A stretch of DNA of 37,435 nucleotides from Acidobacteriota bacterium (lineage in GTDB: Bacteria; Acidobacteriota; Blastocatellia; UBA7656), in NCBI GenBank assembly GCA_016201275.1, contig JACQDB010000021.1, positions 1 through 37,435 of the forward strand, read 5' to 3'. The position numbers and the translations under genes are program-made. The notes under the pieces are model-generated. The model had not been told where the DNA came from. It saw nothing but the letters and a program-made list of their open reading frames with translations, and did not search any database. Shown piece after piece: positions 23,731 to 37,309 of this stretch (position 1 is the stretch's first letter; every line of letters starts with the position of its first letter).

Positions 23731-24249
23731 CGCTATTAATGAATAGCCGGATGCTTGCAGCTTGTCGCCAGCGACGACGGAGTTGCCGCGAGGCCTGATA
23801 AAACCCGGATGTGGTTTCTTCAGCGCTGGCGGACTCCGCATCCGATTTCCCTATTCACGTATAGAGACTGCCGATTTTCCGGTACGGAAAAAACTCTTGT
23901 CGAGCTATCGGCGAGCGTTTACAGTGACAGCAGTTTCACCAATGAAGTTCGCCTTCTATGGTGGACGGCTCCTCGCAGAGCGAACAAGGTATAGGGGGTT
24001 GATCGCCGGAAGTGTCGTACCGCTTGGCCGCGCAGGGTGATTTGAGCGGCAGTGAGTTTTGCTTCAGCAGTAAAAGCAGTAGATCGAAAAGCGTCCCTGT
24101 TGTGTAGTAGCAGAGAGGTGAAACTTTCTGCCGATAGTTAGAAGCCTGGCTATGTTGAGCTGCTCCCCTGATGTACTTTGTTACCCAAAAAAATAAAAAG
24201 CTCAAGCACCATATTGCAATCAATAGGGCTATGGGAACAGGAAGAAACG

Positions 24250-27200
24250 ATGAATAGAAAATCGGTTGCCGCGACCATTCACACCTTAATTACCACGCAG
24301 AAATCTTTCCGCAGCTATTTGCTGATCGCCATAGTGGTGTTGTTTCTGGCGGGGATGATGAGCCGGAATTTTCACTCTCCGGTTTACGCTGCCGGTACAA
24401 TTACCGGCACGGTCTATAAAGACTACAACGCCAACGGGGCGATGAATACCACTGGCGCGACGCCGAACTTCGCCATAGATGCGGGGGTGGCGGGCGTCGT
24501 GGTGACCGCTTATGACGGAGCGGGTGTGGTACGCGGCACGGCAACGACGGGAGCCAGCGGAACCTATTCATTAGCGGCTGCCGGAACCGGCCCGTATCGC
24601 ATAGAGTTCACTGCTTTGCCCAGCGGATATTATCCGAGCGTAACGGGAACCAACAACGCTTCGACGGTGCGCTTTGTGCCGGATGGCAATTCCTCAGGCA
24701 TTGATCTGGGCATACTCAAGCCTACGGACTATTCGCAGAACAATCCGCTGGTGGCTACGCCCTGTTACATCAACGGCAACAACACCGGCGCTGATGATGT
24801 GCTGGTAGCGCTGGCCTATGATCGCTCTGGGGCGGTGCAACACATCGCGCTGTCCAATCAGATCGGCAGCACCTGGGGGCTGGCCTGGCGTCCGCGCACC
24901 AAAACTTTATTTGCGGCGGCGATGCTGAAACGACAAACCGGATTTGGTCCCGGCAAAGACGGCACTCGCGGCACTGCCGACGACATCAGTTCCATCTACG
25001 TCATAGACTACAACGCGCCGGGAGCCAACGGCGCAGGCACCGTGGTTACAGCGCAAACCATTGATATGAACTCTTTCAGCGGCGTCAATGTTGGTGCCAA
25101 TCCGCGTGTCGGTTCGACTCCGGCTAACGATTTAGCGGGCAACACCACACCGGCGCACGATTACAATGTGCTGGATAAAGTCGGGCGACGCGGCATCGGC
25201 GGCATAGCGGTTTCCGAAGACGGCAACACCTTGTATGTCGTCAACCTCAACCTCACGCAGCCGCAACTGATCGCGCTCAACATCACCAACCTGAGCAGCA
25301 TCACGCTCAACAGCATCACCAACATTTCGAATCCCGGTTGTCCGGGAACCGACACCTTTGCGCCGTGGGCAGTGCGCGTCAAAGATGGCGAGGTTTATGT
25401 TGGCACGGTCTGCACGGCAGATGTTTCGCAGAACGCGCAGAACCTGCGCGCTTATGTGCAGCGGCTTTCCGGCAGTTCCTTCACCAATGTTGATCTGGAT
25501 TCGACCATAGCTGCCGATTATATGCAGCTCTACTATGACCGCTCGTGCAAATACTATAATACCGGCGGGGCGCGTTGTGATCGCGCCGAATGGACCCCGT
25601 GGGATGACAATTTCACCTTTGCTACCATCGGCACACAGCGCCAGGTGACCGGCGTGCAGCCGATTCTGTCCGACATTGAATTCGACCCGGATGGCGCGAT
25701 GATCCTTGGCGTCATGGATCGGCGCGGACACCAACACGGCACTGGCAATTATTCGCCGACCGCAGGGGACACGGCGCTTTATGAAGAAATCTCTGCCGGA
25801 ACCATACTCAAGCTGTGCAATGTCAGTGGTACATATGTACCGGAAGGCAAGGCCGGGTGTTCGCGCACGGTGGTTCCGCCCTATGATGCGACGACCGACC
25901 CCGCGCCGGGGGCTGCAGGCATTCCGACGACCTTCTTTAATAACTATTCGGCAACCGGCGGCGGCGACGGTCACGAAGAGATTTTTTTCGGCGGACTGGC
26001 GAATCTGCCGGGCGCTAAAGAAATCGTGGGAACGATGATGAATCCCCAGCCGACCTATTATGCGGGCGGCTGGCGTTGGCTCAGTACCGCGACTGGTGCT
26101 CCCATAGCCAACTTCACGCTCTACACCGGCAATGGTGGAACCAGCAATGTGCTGGGCAAAGCTAATGGCTTGGGCGATACCGTGTTATTGACCGACCCTG
26201 CGCCGCTGCAAATCGGCAATCGGGTGTGGAATGATGCCGACGGGGACGGCATTCAAGATGCCAACGAGAGCGCCATCTCCGGCGTGACCGTGCAATTGTG
26301 GGGAGACACCAATGGTGATGGCACGGTTGATACACAGGTGGGCAGCGCCACGACCGATGCCAGCGGTAACTATTATTTTGGCGGCAGCAGCAACACCAAT
26401 ATGCTGTCGTCGTGCGGCACTACGACCTTGACGCCGCGCGTCAATGCCAGTTCCGATGATGCCGAAGAAGCGGCTGGCACAGTTGTCACTACTGGATCAC
26501 TTGACCTGGCTTATGCCGGCTCGACGATAAATCTTGTGGGGATGCGGTTCAACGGTCTGACCATTCCGCGTGGCGCGAGAATCACCAGCGCGACGCTGCA
26601 ATTTACCGCCAGCAACAGCGATTCGACCAACACCGTCAATCTCACCATTCAAGGCGAAGCGGTAGCCAATTCCACGACCTTTACCACCGCCACCAACAAC
26701 CTGTCATCGCGCCCTCGCACCACCAGTTCGGTCGCCTGGTCTGCGCTAGGCGCGTGGACAAGTGGCGCAACCACCAATGCCACGTCGCCGAATTTCGCCG
26801 CCGTCATACAGGAGATTGTCAATAACTCCGGCTGGGCTAGCGGCAACAGCTTGAACCTTTTTCTCTCTGACAATGCTTCGACCGCCAGCGCTCGCCGTCG
26901 TGGGCGCTCGTTCGATTCATCAACCACCACCGCGCCCTTGTTGAGCGTGACCTATGATTGCCCATATACCCTGGCCACCAATCGCGCTTATGAAATTCGC
27001 ATCGCCACCGGACAGGCATCTTTAAGCGCCACGCCAGCTTTGACCACCACCAACGGCGACGCTTCGGCAAACGGCGACAGCCGCGATTCCGATGTTACGC
27101 TTTCGGGCAGCAACGCCGTCATAGCTTTTACCAGCGGCGGTGCCGGAGTTAACGATCACACTTTTGACGCCGGGTTTTTGCCCACCGCCTCAGCCATCTA

Positions 27201-30200
27201 TTCGCTAGGCAATCGCGTCTTTTTCGATACCAACAACAACGGCCAAATGGACGTAGGCGAGATCGGCATAGGCAATGTCACCGTGCAATTGCTCGACAGC
27301 AACAACACGGTTGTACAGACGCAGACGACCACCACCACAGCAGGCAGCGCCGGTTATTATCGCTTCGATAATTTGGTGGCGGGAACTTATAAAGTACGCA
27401 TCCCCGCCGCGAACTTCACCGGCGCGGGCGCGTTGGTCGGTTATCAAAACAGCGCCAATTCTATCTCCGGCACCGACCTGCGCGACAACGGCGTTGACCC
27501 GGCCAGCAACAACCCTTCGACTGCCGGGGTTCTCAGCGCCAGCCTCGTCGTCGGCAATGGTGCGTTTCCAATCAGCGAACCCGATGTCACGGCTTCGGGC
27601 GCGGGGGCGCACGCTGCTATCGGAGACGGACGTGATAACTTGACGGTGGATTTCGGTTTCTTCAATGTCGTTTTGGGCAATTTGATTTTTGTGGACGCCA
27701 ACAGCAATGGCACCTTTGATGGCATAGATACGCCTTTGTCTGGAGCGACCGTCAGACTCTATCAAGCCGATGGCACCACCGAAGTTCCGGTTGGCCCCGA
27801 TGGCATACTTGGCACCACCGACGACACCACCGGCGTAACCAATCAATTGACGACGACCAGCACCGGGCTGTACCAGTTTTCGGGATTACCAGCGGGCAGC
27901 TACGTCGTGAAAGTCAATCCGGGCAGCGGTTATCGCAGCACCGCCGATGTCGTCAATACCGGCAATCCCAACAGCAACACCGACAGTGATGATAACGGCG
28001 TCGGCAGCGCCACCGGACAAGTCAGCAGCGCTGTCAATGCTTCGGCCATCGCCTTGACGCCGGGTTCCGAACCGACGGTGGATAACAACACCGGCAAGAC
28101 CACCAACTTCACTTTGGACTTTGGCTTCAATTCGGTTACCGCTGTGACCTTGACCGCCTGTGTGGTGTCGGGTTACGACAAAGGCGCGTTGATTGAATGG
28201 CAGAGCGGCTTTGAAGAAGACAATCTGGGCTACAACATTTATCAGGAAGACAACGGCAAACGCACCCTGGTCAATCAACAGATGATCGCCGGTTCGGCGT
28301 TGACAGTGGGCACGGACACGGTGATTCGTTCCGGTTTTTCGTATGCCTGGTGGGATGATACGGCAACCGGCAAAACGGCTGCTTACTGGTTAGAAGCGGT
28401 TGACCTCAACGGCACCAGCCAATGGTTCGGTCCTTACTTTGTCAATCCGATTGGCGGCGCGCCACCGCCGCGCAGCAACGCGCCGTTGTTGAGCAAACTG
28501 GGCGCGCCTCAACAGCAGATCACCCGCCCGGTCGAAGCCATGGCCGGGATGCCTAGGTCTTCGGCCAAGCCGGTGGATAAACAGCCGTATCTGGCGCTTG
28601 CCGGAGCCGCCATCAAAATCGGCGTCAAGGAAGAGGGCTGGTACCGCATTCCTTTTGCCGATTTGCAAAGCGCCGGATTGCCCGCCAATACCAACCCGCA
28701 ATTCCTGCAACTCTTTGTTGACGGACAGGAATTGCCGATCAAGATCAGCGAGGATAAAGACGGCAAGGCGGTCGAATTTTATGGCGTCTGCGTCAATTCG
28801 CTGTACACCTTTATGCGAACCTATTATCTAGTGCCGGGGACGCGGCAAGGCTTGCGTATTGAGTCGGTGGAAGGCAAAGGCGTGCCGAGCAACGCTACAG
28901 GATTTGCCTACAGCGTTGAGCGCAAAGACCGCACCATTTACTTTTCCTCTTTGCGGAATGGCGACCGGGAAAACTTCTTTGGCGCGGTCATCTCCAGAAA
29001 TCCGCTCAATCAAACTGTGACCTTGACCAATCTTGACCCCTCGGCAACGGGCTATGCGACGCTTGATGTTTCGGTGCAGGGCGTCACGCAGGTGAACCAC
29101 GTCATATTGGTGCAACTCAATGGCGCGAGTCTGGGCTACGTCTCGTTTGCAGGGTTGACCTTGGGGGCGCAGCAATTTCACGTACCGCAATCGGTGCTGC
29201 GCGAAGGCCAGAACACCGTGACCTTGACGCCGCTTGGCGGGAATGCCGATATTGACTTGGTGGATGCGATTCGTTTGACCTATCAACATCGTTACAAGGT
29301 TGATAACAACTTGTTGAAGTTCACGGCAAGCGGCGGTCAGCGCATCACTGTGGATGGTTTTTCCAGCCCAGCCATAGAGGTGCTGGATGTGACCAATCCG
29401 TTTGCCATTAGCGAAATGACGCTCGAAACGCAGGCGGCCAGCGGCGGCGGTTATGCCGCGAGTTTCGTTGCGCCGGCCAGCGGCGAGCGCACTTTGTTGG
29501 CTTTGACCGTTGATAAAAAGAAGGCTGTGCCATCCCTCAAGCGCGATGATTTGACCACCTGGAAACAGACCAACAACGCGGCGGATTTAGTTATCATCAC
29601 GACGCGTGAGTTTGCCCCGGTGGTGGCGGACTTGAAAGCGCTGCGCGAGACCCAGGGCTTGACGGTGGTGGTACTGTGCGCCGAAGACCTCTACGATGAA
29701 TTCAGCTACGGGCAGAAGAACCCGCAAGCCATACGCGACTTTTTGAACTTCACCGCGAAATGGAAAAAGGGGCCGCGTTATGTCTTGTTGGTTGGCGATG
29801 CCAGTTATGATCCGAAGAATTATCTGGGCGCTGGCGACTTCGACTTTGTGCCGTCCAAATTGATAGACACTCATTATATGGAGACCGCCAGCGATGACTG
29901 GTTGGCCGATTTCGATGGCGATGGCATAGCCGATTTAAACATCGGGCGCTTGCCTGTACGAACCGTCGAGCAGGCCAAATTGATGATCGCCAAAATCATC
30001 GCTTATGAAAAAGCTACGCCTTCACGCGAAGTCTTATTGGTGGCCGATGCGCCTGACATCTACGATTTTGAAAGCGCTACTGACGCCTTGCGGACATTGG
30101 TTGACAATCAAACGCAGATCAGTCAGATCAAGCGCGCCAAATTGGATGCCAGCACCGCAAAAAGCCAATTGCTGGCGGCCTTGAATCGTGGGCCGAGGGT

Positions 30201-30603
30201 GGTCAATTACGTCGGTCATGGGTCGGTGAATTTGTGGCGCGGCAATCTGTTGACCAATGCCGATGCGCGGGCTTTGACCAATAGCGAACGGCTGTCGTTC
30301 GTCGTCGTGATGAGTTGTTTGAACGGTTATTTCAACGACCCGTATCTGGATGGTCTGGCGGAAAGCCTGATGAAAGCCGAAGGCGGCGGCGCGGTGGCGG
30401 TGTGGGCGTCATCGGGTTTGACCGAGCCGCACGAACAATCGGTGATGAATCAGGAACTCTACAGGCAATTGTTCAATCCCAAGATCAAGGGCAGCAAGCC
30501 GACCATCAGTGAAGCCATACGCAAAGCTAAAGCGGTGGTCTTGGATATGGACATTCGCCGTAGCTGGATTTTCTTCGGCGACCCGACCATGAAACTGAAA
30601 TAA
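24250..30603 (+). CDS. Secreted giant gingipain-like (C25) cysteine protease with SdrD_B repeats
   Basis: The 2117-residue protein has a signal peptide ending near VYAA (residues 45-48). Next come an SdrD_B-like domain (49-155), a beta-propeller-like region (about 157-652; DIEFDPDGAMILGVMDRRGH), an SdrD_B domain from 653 (IGNRVWNDADGDGIQDANES) interrupted by a DNRLRE-like beta module at about 718-901, further SdrD_B domains from about 981 and 1142, an FN3-like domain near 1297, a pre-protease domain from about 1453, and a C25 caspase-like peptidase (about 1767-2117). The His-Cys dyad is present: YVGHGS (His1990) and VMSCLNGYF (Cys2023). DGDG-type loops suggest calcium binding. The chain ends right after the peptidase (FGDPTMKLK), so no type IX sorting domain is seen. 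AGGAAG lies six bases before the ATG at 24250. It probably degrades or processes proteins outside the cell. Confidence 0.9.
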   Translation: MNRKSVAATIHTLITTQKSFRSYLLIAIVVLFLAGMMSRNFHSPVYAAGTITGTVYKDYNANGAMNTTGATPNFAIDAGVAGVVVTAYDGAGVVRGTATTGASGTYSLAAAGTGPYRIEFTALPSGYYPSVTGTNNASTVRFVPDGNSSGIDLGILKPTDYSQNNPLVATPCYINGNNTGADDVLVALAYDRSGAVQHIALSNQIGSTWGLAWRPRTKTLFAAAMLKRQTGFGPGKDGTRGTADDISSIYVIDYNAPGANGAGTVVTAQTIDMNSFSGVNVGANPRVGSTPANDLAGNTTPAHDYNVLDKVGRRGIGGIAVSEDGNTLYVVNLNLTQPQLIALNITNLSSITLNSITNISNPGCPGTDTFAPWAVRVKDGEVYVGTVCTADVSQNAQNLRAYVQRLSGSSFTNVDLDSTIAADYMQLYYDRSCKYYNTGGARCDRAEWTPWDDNFTFATIGTQRQVTGVQPILSDIEFDPDGAMILGVMDRRGHQHGTGNYSPTAGDTALYEEISAGTILKLCNVSGTYVPEGKAGCSRTVVPPYDATTDPAPGAAGIPTTFFNNYSATGGGDGHEEIFFGGLANLPGAKEIVGTMMNPQPTYYAGGWRWLSTATGAPIANFTLYTGNGGTSNVLGKANGLGDTVLLTDPAPLQIGNRVWNDADGDGIQDANESAISGVTVQLWGDTNGDGTVDTQVGSATTDASGNYYFGGSSNTNMLSSCGTTTLTPRVNASSDDAEEAAGTVVTTGSLDLAYAGSTINLVGMRFNGLTIPRGARITSATLQFTASNSDSTNTVNLTIQGEAVANSTTFTTATNNLSSRPRTTSSVAWSALGAWTSGATTNATSPNFAAVIQEIVNNSGWASGNSLNLFLSDNASTASARRRGRSFDSSTTTAPLLSVTYDCPYTLATNRAYEIRIATGQASLSATPALTTTNGDASANGDSRDSDVTLSGSNAVIAFTSGGAGVNDHTFDAGFLPTASAIYSLGNRVFFDTNNNGQMDVGEIGIGNVTVQLLDSNNTVVQTQTTTTTAGSAGYYRFDNLVAGTYKVRIPAANFTGAGALVGYQNSANSISGTDLRDNGVDPASNNPSTAGVLSASLVVGNGAFPISEPDVTASGAGAHAAIGDGRDNLTVDFGFFNVVLGNLIFVDANSNGTFDGIDTPLSGATVRLYQADGTTEVPVGPDGILGTTDDTTGVTNQLTTTSTGLYQFSGLPAGSYVVKVNPGSGYRSTADVVNTGNPNSNTDSDDNGVGSATGQVSSAVNASAIALTPGSEPTVDNNTGKTTNFTLDFGFNSVTAVTLTACVVSGYDKGALIEWQSGFEEDNLGYNIYQEDNGKRTLVNQQMIAGSALTVGTDTVIRSGFSYAWWDDTATGKTAAYWLEAVDLNGTSQWFGPYFVNPIGGAPPPRSNAPLLSKLGAPQQQITRPVEAMAGMPRSSAKPVDKQPYLALAGAAIKIGVKEEGWYRIPFADLQSAGLPANTNPQFLQLFVDGQELPIKISEDKDGKAVEFYGVCVNSLYTFMRTYYLVPGTRQGLRIESVEGKGVPSNATGFAYSVERKDRTIYFSSLRNGDRENFFGAVISRNPLNQTVTLTNLDPSATGYATLDVSVQGVTQVNHVILVQLNGASLGYVSFAGLTLGAQQFHVPQSVLREGQNTVTLTPLGGNADIDLVDAIRLTYQHRYKVDNNLLKFTASGGQRITVDGFSSPAIEVLDVTNPFAISEMTLETQAASGGGYAASFVAPASGERTLLALTVDKKKAVPSLKRDDLTTWKQTNNAADLVIITTREFAPVVADLKALRETQGLTVVVLCAEDLYDEFSYGQKNPQAIRDFLNFTAKWKKGPRYVLLVGDASYDPKNYLGAGDFDFVPSKLIDTHYMETASDDWLADFDGDGIADLNIGRLPVRTVEQAKLMIAKIIAYEKATPSREVLLVADAPDIYDFESATDALRTLVDNQTQISQIKRAKLDASTAKSQLLAALNRGPRVVNYVGHGSVNLWRGNLLTNADARALTNSERLSFVVVMSCLNGYFNDPYLDGLAESLMKAEGGGAVAVWASSGLTEPHEQSVMNQELYRQLFNPKIKGSKPTISEAIRKAKAVVLDMDIRRSWIFFGDPTMKLK

Positions 30604-30926: not shown

Positions 30927-32537
30927 ATGAACGCACCAGCAAACACCGCTTTGAGATGCCCGCACGGTCACGGCGAAGTCACTGTGCCAGACAGCCGCTT
31001 CTGCAACACTTGTGGAGCGCCTCTGGTTGCTGTCTTTCAACCTCTGAATCAAGCCGCGCAACCGCCAATGCCGCCGATGGTCGCAGCGCAATTCTCGAAT
31101 CAACAGATCAGACCGGCGCAATCGGTGTTTGCCAATCCCGCGCCTGCCCACAACTATCCGCAAAACGGGTACGCGCAGCCGCCATTCAACCCGCAAATGC
31201 CAGGGCAGCAATTCAACCCGCAGATGCAAGGGCAACAATTCAATCCGCAGATGCAAGGCCAAGCCGTCAACGCGACGGCGAAAAGTTTTTGCAAAGTTTG
31301 TAGCGGCAACGGCGCGACCCTCGATGCCAGCGTCATCGTTTGTCCGCAATGCCGTTGGCTGCGCCCACTGGCGGTAAATTACAAGATTGATTGCGAAGCT
31401 TTTTTATGGGCGCAGGACGGCGCGGCGATGTCGAAACTGCGTTCGATGAGCGCCCTTAACTCGGTTGCCAAATCCATCTCTGATAAAGTTGGCAGGCGCT
31501 GGATTGAAACCACGTTCAACGCCATTCGTTTGAGCGACCGGCAATTGCCCGATGTCTATGCTCAAGCGGTGCGTGCCGCTCGCCTGCTCGGCATGAGTTA
31601 TATGCCGGATGTTTATGTTTCGGGCGATAGAATGTGGGACGCCTTGATTTTCGGCAGCGACACCAATGCGTTTCTGGTCTTAGGCACGGCGTTGATTACC
31701 AATTTTCGCGGCGACGATTTGTTGTTCATACTGGCGCGTGAAATGGGCCATTGCCGCGCCGGTCACGCGCTGTGGAAAACCGTGATTCGTTTTTTGGTAG
31801 GCGAGATGGCTCCGCATCGAGGGATTATGGCGGGCGGTTTGGTGTCGGCGGTTGGCAAAGTGCTAAACCCCGGACAATTGATTGAAAGCGCTATGGAATT
31901 GCCGTTGCTGGCGTGGGCTAGACAAGCGGAAATCACCGCCGACCGTGCAGGGCTTCTGGCCGTAGGCGATGAAGCGATAGCGCGTCGCGTGTTGCTGGCC
32001 TGGTCTTTGAAATCTTCTATGCTATGTCAGCAGATCAACATCGAAGAGTGGTTGCAACAGGAAGCCGATGATGACAATATGACGCAGCTTTCCGAAATGC
32101 TCTCTTCGACGACGCCATATATCACGCGCCGTTTGCGCTTGATTCAACAGTTCGCGGCGGAACCGCAGATGCAATATTGGGGCGGATTGGTCAAAGCCTT
32201 TGCGCCCAAGACTGCTTTACCCAAAGCGGTCAACCACAACCCCAACGTGCCGCAAAAACCTGCCGCGATGCAAACTGCTGTGCATCATTCGACAGCAACA
32301 CCAACCCCCAAACCCCTAGCCGATGCCATCAAAATTAACTGTTCGAATTGCCAGACCGCTATGCGAATTCCCAAGTCCGCGCTTGCTGGAAAAGCGGCCT
32401 TGAACGTGAAATGCCCGAACGGCGTGTGCGGTAAAGTCATCACCTTGAAAAAACAGGCCGCACCCGCCGCAAAAGTTTCTGAACCGCAGCGCGCCGAGCA
32501 GTTGAAGAACGAAGCCAATCTGTCGGCTGACGAATAA
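30927..32537 (+). CDS. M48-like peptidase-fold protein with zinc ribbons and altered HExxH motif
   Basis: The 536-residue cytoplasmic-looking protein starts with a zinc-ribbon-like region (Cys11, FCNTC 25-29), a Pro/Gln-rich linker with three FNPQMxGQQ repeats (87-113), and a second ribbon (C122/C125, C139/C142). An M48-like domain follows (about 180-360). Its metal motif reads REMGH (271-275) where M48 enzymes have HExGH: the first zinc His is Arg, whereas the catalytic Glu, second His and downstream ITADRAG (ExxxD-type, around 335-340) remain. The C-terminus holds a third ribbon with CSNC and MRIPKS, recalling MJ0042-type zinc ribbons. It may be a non-proteolytic scaffold. GAGGAG nine bases before the ATG fixes the start. 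It shares an upstream element with the next gene. Confidence 0.82.
   Translation: MNAPANTALRCPHGHGEVTVPDSRFCNTCGAPLVAVFQPLNQAAQPPMPPMVAAQFSNQQIRPAQSVFANPAPAHNYPQNGYAQPPFNPQMPGQQFNPQMQGQQFNPQMQGQAVNATAKSFCKVCSGNGATLDASVIVCPQCRWLRPLAVNYKIDCEAFLWAQDGAAMSKLRSMSALNSVAKSISDKVGRRWIETTFNAIRLSDRQLPDVYAQAVRAARLLGMSYMPDVYVSGDRMWDALIFGSDTNAFLVLGTALITNFRGDDLLFILAREMGHCRAGHALWKTVIRFLVGEMAPHRGIMAGGLVSAVGKVLNPGQLIESAMELPLLAWARQAEITADRAGLLAVGDEAIARRVLLAWSLKSSMLCQQINIEEWLQQEADDDNMTQLSEMLSSTTPYITRRLRLIQQFAAEPQMQYWGGLVKAFAPKTALPKAVNHNPNVPQKPAAMQTAVHHSTATPTPKPLADAIKINCSNCQTAMRIPKSALAGKAALNVKCPNGVCGKVITLKKQAAPAAKVSEPQRAEQLKNEANLSADE
31185..31265 (+). repeat. Three 27-bp in-frame repeats (FNPQMxGQQ)
   Basis: Three consecutive 27-base units encode FNPQMPGQQ, FNPQMQGQQ and FNPQMQGQA. 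They lie in the linker between two zinc ribbons. Unit number may vary between strains through slippage. Confidence 0.85.
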
Positions 32538-32583: not shown

Positions 32584-32640
32584 TGACGGCGATTATAAGC
32601 CGAATCTATTGAACGAAACTGTAAGAGAGGACACCGAATT

Positions 32641-33744
32641 ATGAACACCAACGAAGTGATTATCATCAACGAAGAAGCCGATGGCACGACCACCATTGTT
32701 GACATTATCGAACCGACAACCGATACCAGCGCAACGGTGAGCGGCGACCCGAATGAATCGCTTGCTGAACAAGTGCTGGAAACCATACTCGGTCACGAGA
32801 TTGATCTTGATGGCGATGACAACACCAACAACGTGCAGCAAACCGACGACAGCGACGTGATAACTTCTTATGATGCTCAAGACGCTTCGTTGACCGACGC
32901 AGAGTTTGCAACGCTCGACGCCGATGACTTTGCCGCTGACGATTTGCAAGCGACCGCCGCCAGCGACAACGCCGATGCCACCGCCTTCAACACAACTGAT
33001 TATGCTACCGCTGAGGTCGCCGGTGCTGCTTTTGCGACGGCTGACTTTGCTGCCACGACCAGCGATGATTTCAGTGCTTCTACGGCAACCACAACTTCGA
33101 CTAATGACACCGCAAGCAATGACACCACCTCCGAAGCGCAGGCGCACATTGATGCTGCAACCCAAGCGCAAGAGCAGGCCGATGCCGCCATCGCCGCTGG
33201 CGATTACGAAACCGCCGCGCACTTGCGCGCCGACGCCGAAACCGAAGCTTATGCCGCAAGCGATGATTCTATGCTGCACGGCAACGATTCTAACGATTTG
33301 TATTTGGCGAACAACCAGCACGACCAAGCCGAAGCGGCACAGCAACAGGAAGCGCAATTTGCCGCCGCCGGGGATTATGAATCGGCGCGTGATGCCGCCG
33401 CCGATGCCGCTACTTATCAGCAATGGTCTGATGGCAACGCCGGTGGCAGCGATCACGCTGGGCAAGCGCAGCATGAACAGGCGCAGGAAGATTGGGCGGC
33501 GTGGCATCAAGATATAGCCGAAGACAATCAAGCGTCGGCAGATGCTTATGCGGCATATGGTGACGCCGATGGCGCGGCGATGTATCAAGAGGTTGCCAAC
33601 GACCATCAGGAAGTGGCAGACGATTACGGCGCGGCGGGAACCTATGACGCGACTTATGATACTTCGGATGCGACCTACACGGCGGACACCTCTTACGATT
33701 CGTCTTACAGTGCGGCGGATTATTCTTCGTATGATTCGGAGTGA
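32641..33744 (+). CDS. Lysine-free, strongly acidic Ala/Asp/Thr-rich protein
   Basis: The 367-residue product has no lysine, no cysteine and only two arginines, against a very large number of Asp and Glu. Residues 1-60 include a short ordered-looking segment (EVIIINEEADGTTTIVDIIE). About 170-310 is helical and contains three related units: AAGDYETAAHLRADAE, AAGDYESARDAAADAA and AYGDADGAAMYQEVAN, which look like degenerate TPR-like helices. The C-terminus (from about 325) is rich in Tyr, Ser, Thr and Asp. There is no signal peptide. I recognise no family. It follows the M48-like gene with a copy of the same upstream element, suggesting common control. GAGAGGA lies about nine bases before the ATG. 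Confidence 0.82.
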   Translation: MNTNEVIIINEEADGTTTIVDIIEPTTDTSATVSGDPNESLAEQVLETILGHEIDLDGDDNTNNVQQTDDSDVITSYDAQDASLTDAEFATLDADDFAADDLQATAASDNADATAFNTTDYATAEVAGAAFATADFAATTSDDFSASTATTTSTNDTASNDTTSEAQAHIDAATQAQEQADAAIAAGDYETAAHLRADAETEAYAASDDSMLHGNDSNDLYLANNQHDQAEAAQQQEAQFAAAGDYESARDAAADAATYQQWSDGNAGGSDHAGQAQHEQAQEDWAAWHQDIAEDNQASADAYAAYGDADGAAMYQEVANDHQEVADDYGAAGTYDATYDTSDATYTADTSYDSSYSAADYSSYDSE

Positions 33745-33815
33745 TGAAAATTCATCGCCTGCGGTCGGGTCTTTCGCCGGAGCCATTCAGTTGTCGTTAC
33801 AGAAAAGAAAAATGG

Positions 33816-33897
33816 AACCACCGATGAACACCGATACCGGAAAATGAAGAGCTTTCCCTGCTTTTTCATCTGTGTTTATCGGTGTTCATCGGTGGTT
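33816..33897. repeat. Perfect 21-bp inverted repeat
   Basis: The arms at 33816-33836 and 33877-33897 are perfect complements, with the shared part ACCACCGATGAACACCGAT / ATCGGTGTTCATCGGTGGT. TTTTT follows on the plus strand. The 40-base loop also folds (AAGAGC / GCTTT). A repeat of this text occurs in many bacterial genomes, from memory. Confidence 0.75.
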
Positions 33898-33964: not shown

Positions 33965-33999
33965 CATAGCGCAGGCGGTCAGCTTGCGCTATGATTTTT
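33965..33999 (+). terminator. Intrinsic terminator after the acidic-protein gene
   Basis: CATAGCGCA (33965-33973) and TGCGCTATG (33985-33993) form a perfect 9-bp stem with an 11-base loop, followed by ATTTTTC. It separates the acidic-protein gene from the YbjQ-type gene. Confidence 0.7.
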
Positions 34000-34046: not shown

Positions 34047-34463
34047 ATGAAAGACAGACTCGATCATCTGGAAGCGGCGCAACAGTGCGTCGCGCCAACG
34101 GCTCCTTATGCGGTCTCCGAAGGCTATCGTTTATCGCCGCACATGGTGACCACGGCGTTCACTCTGGATGGCTTTCGCGTGGTGCAAAATTTAGGCGTAG
34201 TGCGCGGCATCACCGTGCGTTCGCGTTCGATCTTCGGAACCTTGGGCGGCACGTTGCAAACCATCGTCGGCGGCAACATCACGGCGTTTACCAAGCTGTG
34301 CGAACAGGCCAGAGCCGAAGCCTTTGAAATCCTCATTCAACACGCCAGCGAAATCGGCGCGAACGCCATTATCGGTATGCGCTACGACGCGACCGAAGTG
34401 ATGAGCGGCGTCAGCGAAGTTCTGGCCTACGGCACGGCGGTTGTCGTGCAGCCGCTTGAATAG
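34047..34463 (+). CDS. YbjQ/UPF0145 family protein
   Basis: The 138-residue product matches the YbjQ (UPF0145, DUF74) family, a small pentameric domain often annotated as putative heavy-metal binding, with no firm function. Family features are [20 protein letters not shown], the glycine-rich [20 protein letters not shown], then [15 protein letters not shown] and a closing [11 protein letters not shown] strand. About 30 extra residues precede the usual start. No signal peptide is present. TGAAGAA lies directly before the ATG. A strong terminator follows, so it is a single-gene unit. Confidence 0.9.
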
Positions 34464-34642: not shown

Positions 34643-36196
34643 TTATTTCTTCACCAAAAATGGTTTGGAGATCAAGCCATCGCGGTTGATCACGGTAAGG
34701 GTGATCTCTTGTCCGTCTTGCCAGTCTTTTTTGCCCAGGTTGATGATGATTTCGTGGTTGGGATCCGCCAAACTTCTTTCTGCCATTACGGCTTCATTGC
34801 CATTGATTTGTACGCGGACACCGGCAAGGAAATTGGTTCCCTTGATTCTCGCACGCTTTTTTTTGATTCGTACTTCTTCAATAACCGGAGCCGTTTCTAC
34901 ATCCGTCAAAACCAACTTGTTCTTGCCATTACGAAAAGCCAGAGTGGCCGGCAGTTGTCCGATCAATTGGATATAATGCTCGCTATCCGGCCCCATTTGT
35001 TTGCTGTCCACGTCTACGACTTCGCCCGTCAAGGTGTCGAAGGTGAAAAGTAAGCCGCTGTTCAAAGCCAGGAAACCTAAAGCTCCGGTTGCCGAAACCG
35101 CGACATTGTTCTCTGCTATCGCATTAAAAAAAGCACCATCGGGACTACGTTTTGGTAGCGTGACATCGGCTGTGTGTTGTAAAACGCCATCGGCGTTCAG
35201 CGCAATTATGTTGATCGTGGTAAAGCCGAAAAGCGGCGAAAAAAGGGTGTCCGTGGCGGCGACATAGGTGAGCGTATTCACTCCCGGAAAACCTCTTTCA
35301 CTGATGACGAGCAGATGAGAAGTTTTTTGCTCCAGATCATAAGAGATAAATAAGGTTTTTGAAGCCACATCAGAATGCCCCACATAAGCAATTAAAAATC
35401 GCCCGTTTTTGCTGATTGCTATACCTGTGGCCAACAGAATAGGAGGTTCCGAGGAAGGTTCATTGGGCGGCGGCGCGATCTTTGCTTCAATGCTGAGATG
35501 ATCCGGATCTGACCCTAGCACCAGTACAAATGCCCCTACGGTTAATACGGCTTTATGGGTTATGACATTGAACAGTACCGCTTCCGGCTTGCCTTCTTCT
35601 ATAGGCATTTGATCAATCACCATACCGTCTTCCGAGCGAATCAAATCAAGTTTTGTGACAAACTGAATTATTGGTGGTGTTGGAATCGTACCGGGCTTTG
35701 CTTGAGCATGAAGCACATAGATTCTGGTTCCAGTGTCGTCAAAATTTAATTCAGGCCATAAATCACCAACCGATGGGTAAGAGATCGCCCAGCGTTTCGT
35801 AAAATGACCGTTGCGGTCTATGGCGAGATTGACGATGTTCTGGGTGTTATTGATGCCCAACCCATAAGCTATCACCGCGCCGCTTTCGCTATGCGCCTTT
35901 AGCGCGGCGAAAGGCGTGTCAATCTGACGATCAAATCCAAAATCCGGTTTGAGATCGAAGTCATCAAGAATCGCTCCGGTTGCTACGGCAAAAGAGAAAA
36001 CCTTGAAAATAGAATCTGCTCTACTTAGCGTAAAGGCGACGCCAATCTGTTCTTGATAGATGAAAACGAGCGCATTCGGATGGGAGCTAATAACTCCATT
36101 GATATTAAAGGTAATTTCTCGACGTTGCGCGAATCCGGCAGAGACGAATAACAGCAGCAGAAATATCGAAAGCAGAGAACGATTTTTGTGACTCAT
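34643..36196 (-). CDS. Secreted beta-propeller-like protein with C-terminal IPT/TIG-like domain
   Basis: The 517-residue product has a signal peptide (MSHKNRSLLSIFLLLLFVSA, cleavage near GFAQ). The body has repeated strand-rich units, such as AIDRNGHFTKRW, GIAISKNGRFLIAYVGHSD and AVSATGALGFLALNSGLLFT, resembling propeller blades. The last 90 residues (APVIEEVRIKKKRARIKGTN, ISKPFLVKK) resemble an IPT/TIG Ig-like domain. No catalytic motif is seen. AAGGAGT eight bases before the ATG at 36196 decides this start over an upstream ATG. It is a close paralogue of the gene 36 bases upstream, so the two are a tandem duplicate in one operon. Confidence 0.85.
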   Translation of the reverse strand: MSHKNRSLLSIFLLLLFVSAGFAQRREITFNINGVISSHPNALVFIYQEQIGVAFTLSRADSIFKVFSFAVATGAILDDFDLKPDFGFDRQIDTPFAALKAHSESGAVIAYGLGINNTQNIVNLAIDRNGHFTKRWAISYPSVGDLWPELNFDDTGTRIYVLHAQAKPGTIPTPPIIQFVTKLDLIRSEDGMVIDQMPIEEGKPEAVLFNVITHKAVLTVGAFVLVLGSDPDHLSIEAKIAPPPNEPSSEPPILLATGIAISKNGRFLIAYVGHSDVASKTLFISYDLEQKTSHLLVISERGFPGVNTLTYVAATDTLFSPLFGFTTINIIALNADGVLQHTADVTLPKRSPDGAFFNAIAENNVAVSATGALGFLALNSGLLFTFDTLTGEVVDVDSKQMGPDSEHYIQLIGQLPATLAFRNGKNKLVLTDVETAPVIEEVRIKKKRARIKGTNFLAGVRVQINGNEAVMAERSLADPNHEIIINLGKKDWQDGQEITLTVINRDGLISKPFLVKK

Positions 36197-36232
36197 TTTG
36201 AATACTCCTTGAAGCTGCATTGCGACAAGCAA

Positions 36233-37309
36233 CTACGGTTTGATGACGAAGGGTTTGGAGATCAAGCCATCGCGGTTGGTCACCTCGATGCGGAGTTCCT
36301 GTGTGGGCGGCAGATCTTTTCTGCCCAGAGGGAGTATGATTTCGCGCCCCGGATTTTGTGCGCTGCGATTGGCCGTGGGAACCTCCTCGCCATTGAGGGT
36401 GACTTTGAGGCCGGACAGGAAGTTGAAACCGCTGATGAGGGTGCTGTCTTTTTTCACTCGAACCGCGTTGATGACCGGCGCTACTTGAGCGTCCAACATC
36501 ACGAACTTGTTGGTGCCGTTGGCGTACAGCAGAGACTGGTGCGATGTCAGGTAGTAGAGATAGGTGAGGTTGTCGGGAACCGTTTCCTCGTTGACAATCT
36601 CGCCGGTCATGGTGTCGAAGCTGAAGATTTTTTTATTCACCGTGGAGACAAAACCGAGCGCGCCGGAAGGCGAAAGCGCCATACTGTTTGAGGCGCTAAT
36701 CAAAGTCGGATTCGCGCCATCATCGGGCAACTGTAGCCGTGTAGCAGGAGCTAAGGAACCATCGGCTCCGAGGTGGAGGAAGTCGGCAAAGTTGGTGCCG
36801 CAGGAGCAGCCTTTCGCCGTGATGAGCTTGCCTTTAATTTTTATTTTGATGGTTGCGGAGTACGGCACAAACATAGTGTTGGTCGGGGCGTGAAAGAGAA
36901 CCACATTGGCAGCAGGCAGGACTCGCGCTTTCAAAGACAGAAGGCGGAAAGTTTTGGTTTGCAGGTCAAAGGTAGTAAAGCTGTTGGCTCTGTCCGTCGG
37001 CAGAGTTTGATCGTAGCTGAAGGTATAGCCGCTATAGCTGACCAGGAAGCGACCATCCTCGCTAATGCTGGTTAAATGCAGCGGAGCCTCGGCAAATTGA
37101 TCGCCGCTCCATTCAATTTCCAGGCGATCTGAAGCGGGTGCGATGAGATGAAGTTTTTCGGTGGTGAGGACAATCGGGCGGTTAGCGATTTTATCGAATA
37201 CCAGCCAGGCGCTGATGTCTCTATCGGGGAGCGGAACGGTGGCAAGGGCTTCTCCATCTTCGGCGCGAAGCAAGGCCAGCTTGGGAATGGAATCATTACA
37301 CCGGAACCT
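36233..37309 (-). pseudogene. Paralogue of the propeller/IPT gene, 5' end lost at an IS630-type element
   Basis: The reading frame encodes about 350 residues that align with the C-terminal two thirds of the neighbouring 517-residue protein: LALLRAEDGEALATVPL corresponds to LDLIRSEDGMVIDQMPI, and both end DGLISKPF(V/L)(I/V)K. No signal peptide remains. Upstream of about 37309 homology stops, an in-frame stop codon occurs at 37316-37318, and a TA dinucleotide at 37309-37310 is followed by DNA leading into an IS630-type transposase gene. The first 190 or so residues have thus been cut off. The in-frame TTG at 37273 could start a shortened product, but it would stay in the cytoplasm. Confidence 0.72.

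Follow-up and report, generated by a model that had tools for sequence, protein, structure and literature searches.

A conserved Acidobacteriota gene pair of a polyanionic protein that avoids positive charge and an apparently inactivated M48-like protease

The acidic family studied here and its zinc-ribbon M48-like partner form a gene pair that is conserved in Acidobacteriota and has not been named, and what the acidic protein avoids is positive charge rather than lysine as such. The pair was analysed in a stretch of 37,435 nt from Acidobacteriota bacterium GCA_016201275.1 (contig JACQDB010000021.1, positions 1 to 37,435), which is called the window in the following. The acidic gene was located on the plus strand at 32641..33744 by its ORF translation and its homologues. 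It encodes a polyanionic protein of 367 residues with no lysine, no cysteine and two arginines and with a net charge (K+R-D-E) of -79. Coordinates, length and composition were all exactly as given in the original prediction, which had also called the absence of lysine improbable by chance. This was borne out when the other long ORFs of the window, with 3.96% lysine and 6.16% arginine, were taken as the baseline: P(K=0) was 3.6e-7 and P(K+R<=2) was 8.8e-15. The absence of cysteine in one protein is unremarkable (P(C=0) = 0.07). The codons of the gene leave the mutational route to lysine open, with 101 of the 3303 possible single-base changes leading to lysine and 119 to arginine.

A Shine-Dalgarno-like GAGAGGA is read on the plus strand at 32625..32631, 9 nt 5' of the ATG. 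The ORF list also contained an antisense ORF of 397 aa on the minus strand (32593-33786) that spans the whole acidic gene; it had no Pfam match at E<=1 and is probably a by-product of the codon composition. The acidic protein matched no Pfam family at E<=1, TPR included, and no NCBIfam family. A chance composition or a spurious ORF was rejected on the strength of the homologues, the purifying selection and the shuffle controls described below.

The partner gene precedes the acidic gene on the same strand (30927..32537, +) and encodes a zinc-ribbon M48-like protein of 536 aa that scored 44.7 bits with PF01435, at a cut-off of 20.3. The protein has several CxxC zinc-ribbon motifs, a net charge of +12 and a pI of 9.1. 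By motif reading, the HExxH of M48 peptidases is replaced by RExxH (REMGH, residues 271-275, 31737..31751, +), and TPY (residues 396-398, 32112..32120, +) stands at the place of the His-Pro active-site plug, which canonical M48 proteins have according to excerpts of PMC7950410. RExxH was found in the partner in 35 of the 37 complete pairs, and the His-Pro plug was missing in all 40 M48-like genes, with TPY or MY in its place. The partner is thus apparently an inactivated protease, as judged from the loss of the first histidine of HExxH. The AlphaFold2 model of the M48-like protein was poor (mean pLDDT 55) and was left unused.

The linkage of the two genes was followed in genome samples of increasing breadth. 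In the first search, the acidic family was detected in 11 of 58 related genomes, the window's own included, and the aligned relatives were 28-43% identical to the acidic protein of the window. The acidic profile detected 33 of 162 genomes of the class, again with the window's own, and the M48 profile detected 34, among them all 33 of the former; the 34th, G029, has a canonical HEVGH M48 without an acidic neighbour. The two profiles were also run on 396 genomes sampled from the phylum, some of them shared with the class sample: the M48 profile matched 19 genomes and the acidic profile 18, all of which were among the 19. The odd genome, G356, carries an M48 with an intact HEIGH beside an acidic gene of 199 residues.

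The motif picked 40 distinct M48-like genes, each with an acidic ORF directly 3' of it, and 37 of these pairs were complete. In 25 of the 37 the two genes overlap by 11 nt, the acidic ATG falling within the last codons of the M48 gene; in the window the two genes do not overlap and are separated by 103 nt. The pair finder demanded less than 6.5% Lys+Arg and more than 17% Asp+Glu, so the composition ranges given below carry this filter, and it dropped no M48-like gene for want of such a neighbour. The 37 pairs include the window's own and two HExxH pairs (L117, L146), and leave out L018/L041 (G012), L042 (Mycobacterium, canonical M48), G108 and the truncated pairs L033, L036 and L065. G108, a 41st pair that escaped the motif, likewise has RExxH and an acidic neighbour, and its coordinates indicate the 11-nt overlap. 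In G012 (L018, 9109-10839), a single open frame joins the first portion of the M48-like gene to a later portion of the acidic one, apparently through a deletion. While the pair persists, its flanking genes vary among lineages. The link to a zinc-ribbon pseudo-protease, for which the original prediction had suggested co-regulation, is well supported as a linkage of genes, by co-occurrence in the same 33 of 162 genomes, adjacency at all 40 loci, overlap in 25 of 37 complete pairs and RExxH for HExxH. Term searches of the open-access literature found no publication on such a pair.

In the 37 complete pairs, the acidic proteins had lengths of 199-490 residues, 0-7 lysines, 0-12 arginines, no cysteine and at most 5.03% Lys+Arg. 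Homologues with a normal lysine content, which would have refuted the original prediction, were not found. The 11 intact acidic proteins of the compared neighbourhoods had the lowest Lys+Arg among 128 ORFs of at least 250 residues. Five members of 251-423 residues (L026, L028, L029, L039 and L040), from metagenome-assembled genomes labelled Acidobacteriaceae or Granulicella, contain no lysine, arginine, histidine or cysteine. Since arginine, and in these five members also histidine, is depleted besides lysine, the trait is avoidance of positive charge. The net charge of the acidic protein ranges from -48 to -123 across the family. Its M48-like partner has a net charge of +5 to +25 and a pI of 8.7-9.6 in the 34 of 37 cases with a complete N-terminal ribbon, and a net charge of +9 to +24 in the other three, where the first ribbon was not found by pattern. 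The net charges of the two proteins correlate (Spearman -0.44, p 0.008, n=34, uncorrected for kinship), and this may reflect kinship.

The original prediction had suggested that the absence of lysine avoids modification. Lysine-desert proteins of pupylating bacteria share the long lysine-free stretches with the acidic family, and such deserts are common in these bacteria according to excerpts of PMC10665810, which report no parallel trend for arginine or histidine deserts. The acidic family differs from them in that it also lacks arginine and sometimes histidine. Moreover, zero lysine is only the extreme of the family, reached by 7 of the 37 complete members, whereas 30 keep 1-7 lysines. The Pup ligase family PF03136 was found in none of 14 pair-bearing genomes, the window's included, with Corynebacterium glutamicum as a positive control; 13 of the 14 carry the acidic family and the 14th is G356. 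Given the additional depletion of arginine and histidine and the count of 0/14 for the Pup ligase, a lysine desert that avoids pupylation or a similar modification is very improbable as the reason, and the suggestion was not upheld. Pup ligase family genes are carried by G004 (C37), which belongs to the same family but gave no match to the pair.

The acidic family is under purifying selection. In 10 pairs of close relatives with more than 75% identity, dN/dS was 0.042-0.103; dS exceeded 1 in 6 of the 10 pairs, which are hence poorly measured, and the values cover close relatives, the window gene being too distant (nearest relative 43% identical). Similarity from composition alone was controlled with a profile of 11 Blastocatellia rows and with shuffled sequences. 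L029 scored 75.5 bits and L039 44.2 bits with this profile. L040, L026 and L028 scored 6.5, -10.0 and -9.3 bits, which is not significant alone, and each was above all 200 of its own shuffles; these three join the family via L039 with 112-162 bits. Similarity from composition alone was rejected for these members.

Two of the pairs keep the catalytic motif. In G356 and G511, an acidic, cysteine-free gene with DxDGDG follows a zinc-ribbon M48 gene (L138 6403-8219; L146) as in the other pairs, but the M48 retains HExxH. The acidic gene of G356 (L117) scored no better than its own shuffles, which lends no support to homology with the family, and that of G511 reached a weak 18.7 bits with the Blastocatellia-row profile and stayed below the best shuffle with the L029 and L039 queries. 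In the midpoint-rooted tree of the M48 domain, the two HExxH members form a branch of their own, and this tree is compatible with an acidic pairing that predates the loss of the catalytic histidine. Parsimony on the same tree placed zero lysine at three changes (bootstrap range 2-3), namely in the window, in L144 and in the Acidobacteriaceae-labelled clade. Well-supported branches force only one of them, and repeated loss of lysine is likely.

The acidic protein can be divided into four parts. The N-terminal segment (residues 1-40, 32641..32760, +) is alignable across the family, with two beta strands predicted at low confidence. Residues 41-156 (32761..33108, +) are rich in Ala, Asp and Thr and mostly predicted to be disordered. 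They are followed by a predicted helical domain with three TPR-like hairpins (residues 157-336, 33109..33648, +), in which both arginines of the protein fall, and by a tail of Ser, Tyr, Asp, Ala and Thr (residues 337-367, 33649..33741, +) that is predicted to be disordered. The AlphaFold2 model, built with 16 alignment rows, had 153 residues at a pLDDT of at least 90 and was mostly below 50 in the remainder. Six long helices, with 10-residue pLDDT means of 89-98, form three hairpins at residues 158-333 in this model, in agreement with the three helical repeat units proposed earlier; the proposed Tyr/Ser/Asp tail was likewise located. The GDY turns of hairpins 1 and 2 are invariant or nearly so among 11 aligned rows.

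Solved relatives were found by sequence neither for the acidic nor for the M48 profile. A Foldseek search of the helical domain against solved structures gave no match at E<=0.001 (best E 0.15), and in a second fold search the best Z was 8.8, a level common for helical bundles. TPR chains were among the weak matches, with Z up to 8.0 and an rmsd of 8.9. "TPR-like" is therefore a description of the predicted domain, its fold matches being at the level of generic helical bundles.

The disordered arm bears on the question of whether the protein binds metal. DTDGDG repeats are inserted in this arm in many relatives from one genus, one relative (L037) matched EF-hand_5 at 4e-7, the partner carries several CxxC motifs, and the small metal-binding protein SMBP was one of many weak fold matches (Z 8.3). 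An Asp-rich metal buffer or metallochaperone would fit these features; it would bind calcium or zinc and either supply the partner's zinc ribbons or guard them. However, residues 41-156 of the window protein contain a single degenerate loop, DLDGDDN, and no Pfam match to EF-hand-like loops, and the five Acidobacteriaceae- or Granulicella-labelled members have neither DTDGDG loops nor histidine or cysteine, so metal loops are not a shared core. We consider the metal explanation unlikely.

The best-supported reading, to which we give about even credence, is that the acidic protein would serve as an adaptor and form a complex, probably in the cytosol, with the basic pseudo-M48 as the other of its two subunits. 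It draws on the co-occurrence, adjacency and overlap of the genes, the opposite charges, the loss of the catalytic histidine, the purifying selection, the confident helical domain and the precedent of BepA; the 103-nt gap in the window, the generic fold matches and the lack of a DUF4190 match in the window's genome speak against it. As judged from charge and the predicted fold, the acidic helical domain would bind the basic M48-like protein through charge complementarity, and in many species the binding might occur while both proteins are being made. The role of the pseudo-M48 would then be to bind or scaffold rather than to cleave proteins, and selection would exclude lysine and arginine as the entire surface must remain negative. 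The opposite charges would also suit a nucleic-acid mimic, a polyanion that occupies the basic zinc-ribbon protein and controls its binding of DNA or RNA. We know of no nucleic-acid binding by the M48-like partner, and regard this explanation as slightly less probable still than the metal one.

The same acidic, cysteine-free composition with DTDGDG repeats in some relatives could instead be a trait of export, as low lysine and cysteine and acidic repeats would be in a secreted or surface polyanion such as a type I secretion substrate. The truncated member L036 continues into RTX-type repeats. On the other hand, in most relatives the start codon falls within the gene for a zinc-ribbon protein whose expected location is the cytosol, a signal-like N-terminus was not seen by eye, and the RTX-type repeats of L036 probably stem from a chimeric assembly. 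Secretion is therefore improbable, more so than either metal or nucleic-acid mimicry. In L036 (7409-8704), which by coordinates seems to be G102:C191, the acidic ORF passes from DTDGDG into RTX-type repeats at the contig end. The locus is probably a chimera because in G102 the remainder of the acidic protein lies on another contig, C103, at its edge.

The adaptor reading can be compared with BepA of E. coli, where, according to excerpts of PMC7950410, the negatively charged face of the TPR domain is largely buried against the M48 domain. An acidic domain of helical hairpins would go with an M48-like domain here too. The differences are that BepA has M48 and TPR in one chain whereas two genes encode them here, that the M48-like part here has zinc ribbons but neither the first histidine nor the His-Pro plug, and that the acidic protein is almost devoid of positive charge. 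BepA is periplasmic, and no signal-like N-terminus was seen by eye in the proteins of the window. By analogy, the pair may function as BepA does with its parts on two genes, although it does not itself belong to BepA.

Four canonical M48 proteins, at the G029 locus L140, in Thermus, in Bernardetia and on a Tsukamurella plasmid, belong to the same peptidase family by profile or annotation. Unlike the partner in the window, they keep HExxH and S-H-P, and they have no acidic neighbour poor in lysine and arginine (judged by annotation alone for Bernardetia). Nine plasmid records contained an M48, with identities up to about 32%, and the three that were compared were all canonical. A mobile element was rejected, with no match in the phage collection and only distant M48 proteins on plasmids. 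An anti-phage defence system was rejected as well, as PADLOC gave no matches for five proteins at E<=0.01.

A wider and clearly more tentative proposal, to which we give rather less credence than to the adaptor, is that the Acidobacteriota have a two-component system of an M48 pseudo-enzyme and a supercharged, partly folded protein, whose acidic pairing is older than the loss of the catalytic histidine. The pairing would predate this loss because HExxH persists next to an acidic gene in two distant genomes. The acidic protein would then have stayed as the protease died, and one clade would have lost every lysine, arginine, histidine and cysteine with the helical part still recognisable. The pair offers a natural experiment on how much positive charge a folded protein can do without, and an example of a protein from a protease family that has apparently become a binding partner.

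The genes before the pair suggest a place of action. When 12 neighbourhoods were clustered, 8 of them had a small zinc-ribbon gene 5' of the M48-like gene, with Pfam DUF4190 above the cut-off in L013 and below it in L025 and L026. Pfam was also applied to two Acidobacteriaceae-labelled loci, L026 and L039, and in both a DUF2752 gene directly precedes the M48-like gene. With a DUF2752 protein or a zinc-ribbon protein that has a DUF4190-like membrane portion encoded just before the pair in many relatives, the complex may work at the inner membrane. The window has neither gene directly upstream, and a search with the DUF4190 protein of L013 gave no match in the window's genome. For DUF2752 and DUF4190, no publication was found by term searches of the open-access literature. 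The other flanking genes are an S58 peptidase, an aldehyde dehydrogenase and a dCTP-deaminase-like gene in the f3 genus, and an ECF sigma factor or a DNA-repair glycosylase in G002.

In the window, a C25 (gingipain-type) peptidase of 2141 aa with four SdrD B-like stretches is encoded 5' of the pair (24178-30603). A YbjQ-family gene (PF01906, 1e-29) lies 3' of the acidic gene at 34047-34463 and clusters with no gene of the other 11 neighbourhoods. Two adjoining minus-strand ORFs at 34643-37273 have similar C-termini, with NRDGLISKPF near both ends; they had no Pfam match above the cut-off and are probably tandem paralogues. A candidate intrinsic terminator with a 12-bp stem, a 5-nt loop and a T-rich tail was found by consensus scan at 33965..33993 (+); the scan gave 6 sites, against 5.2 expected in shuffles, and this one has the longest stem. 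A perfect 21-bp inverted repeat with a 40-nt spacer was also observed 3' of the acidic gene (33816-33897). Its arm is a dispersed repeat, since 29 copies with at most 2 mismatches (12 forward, 17 reverse) were found in the genome and none for the reversed control.
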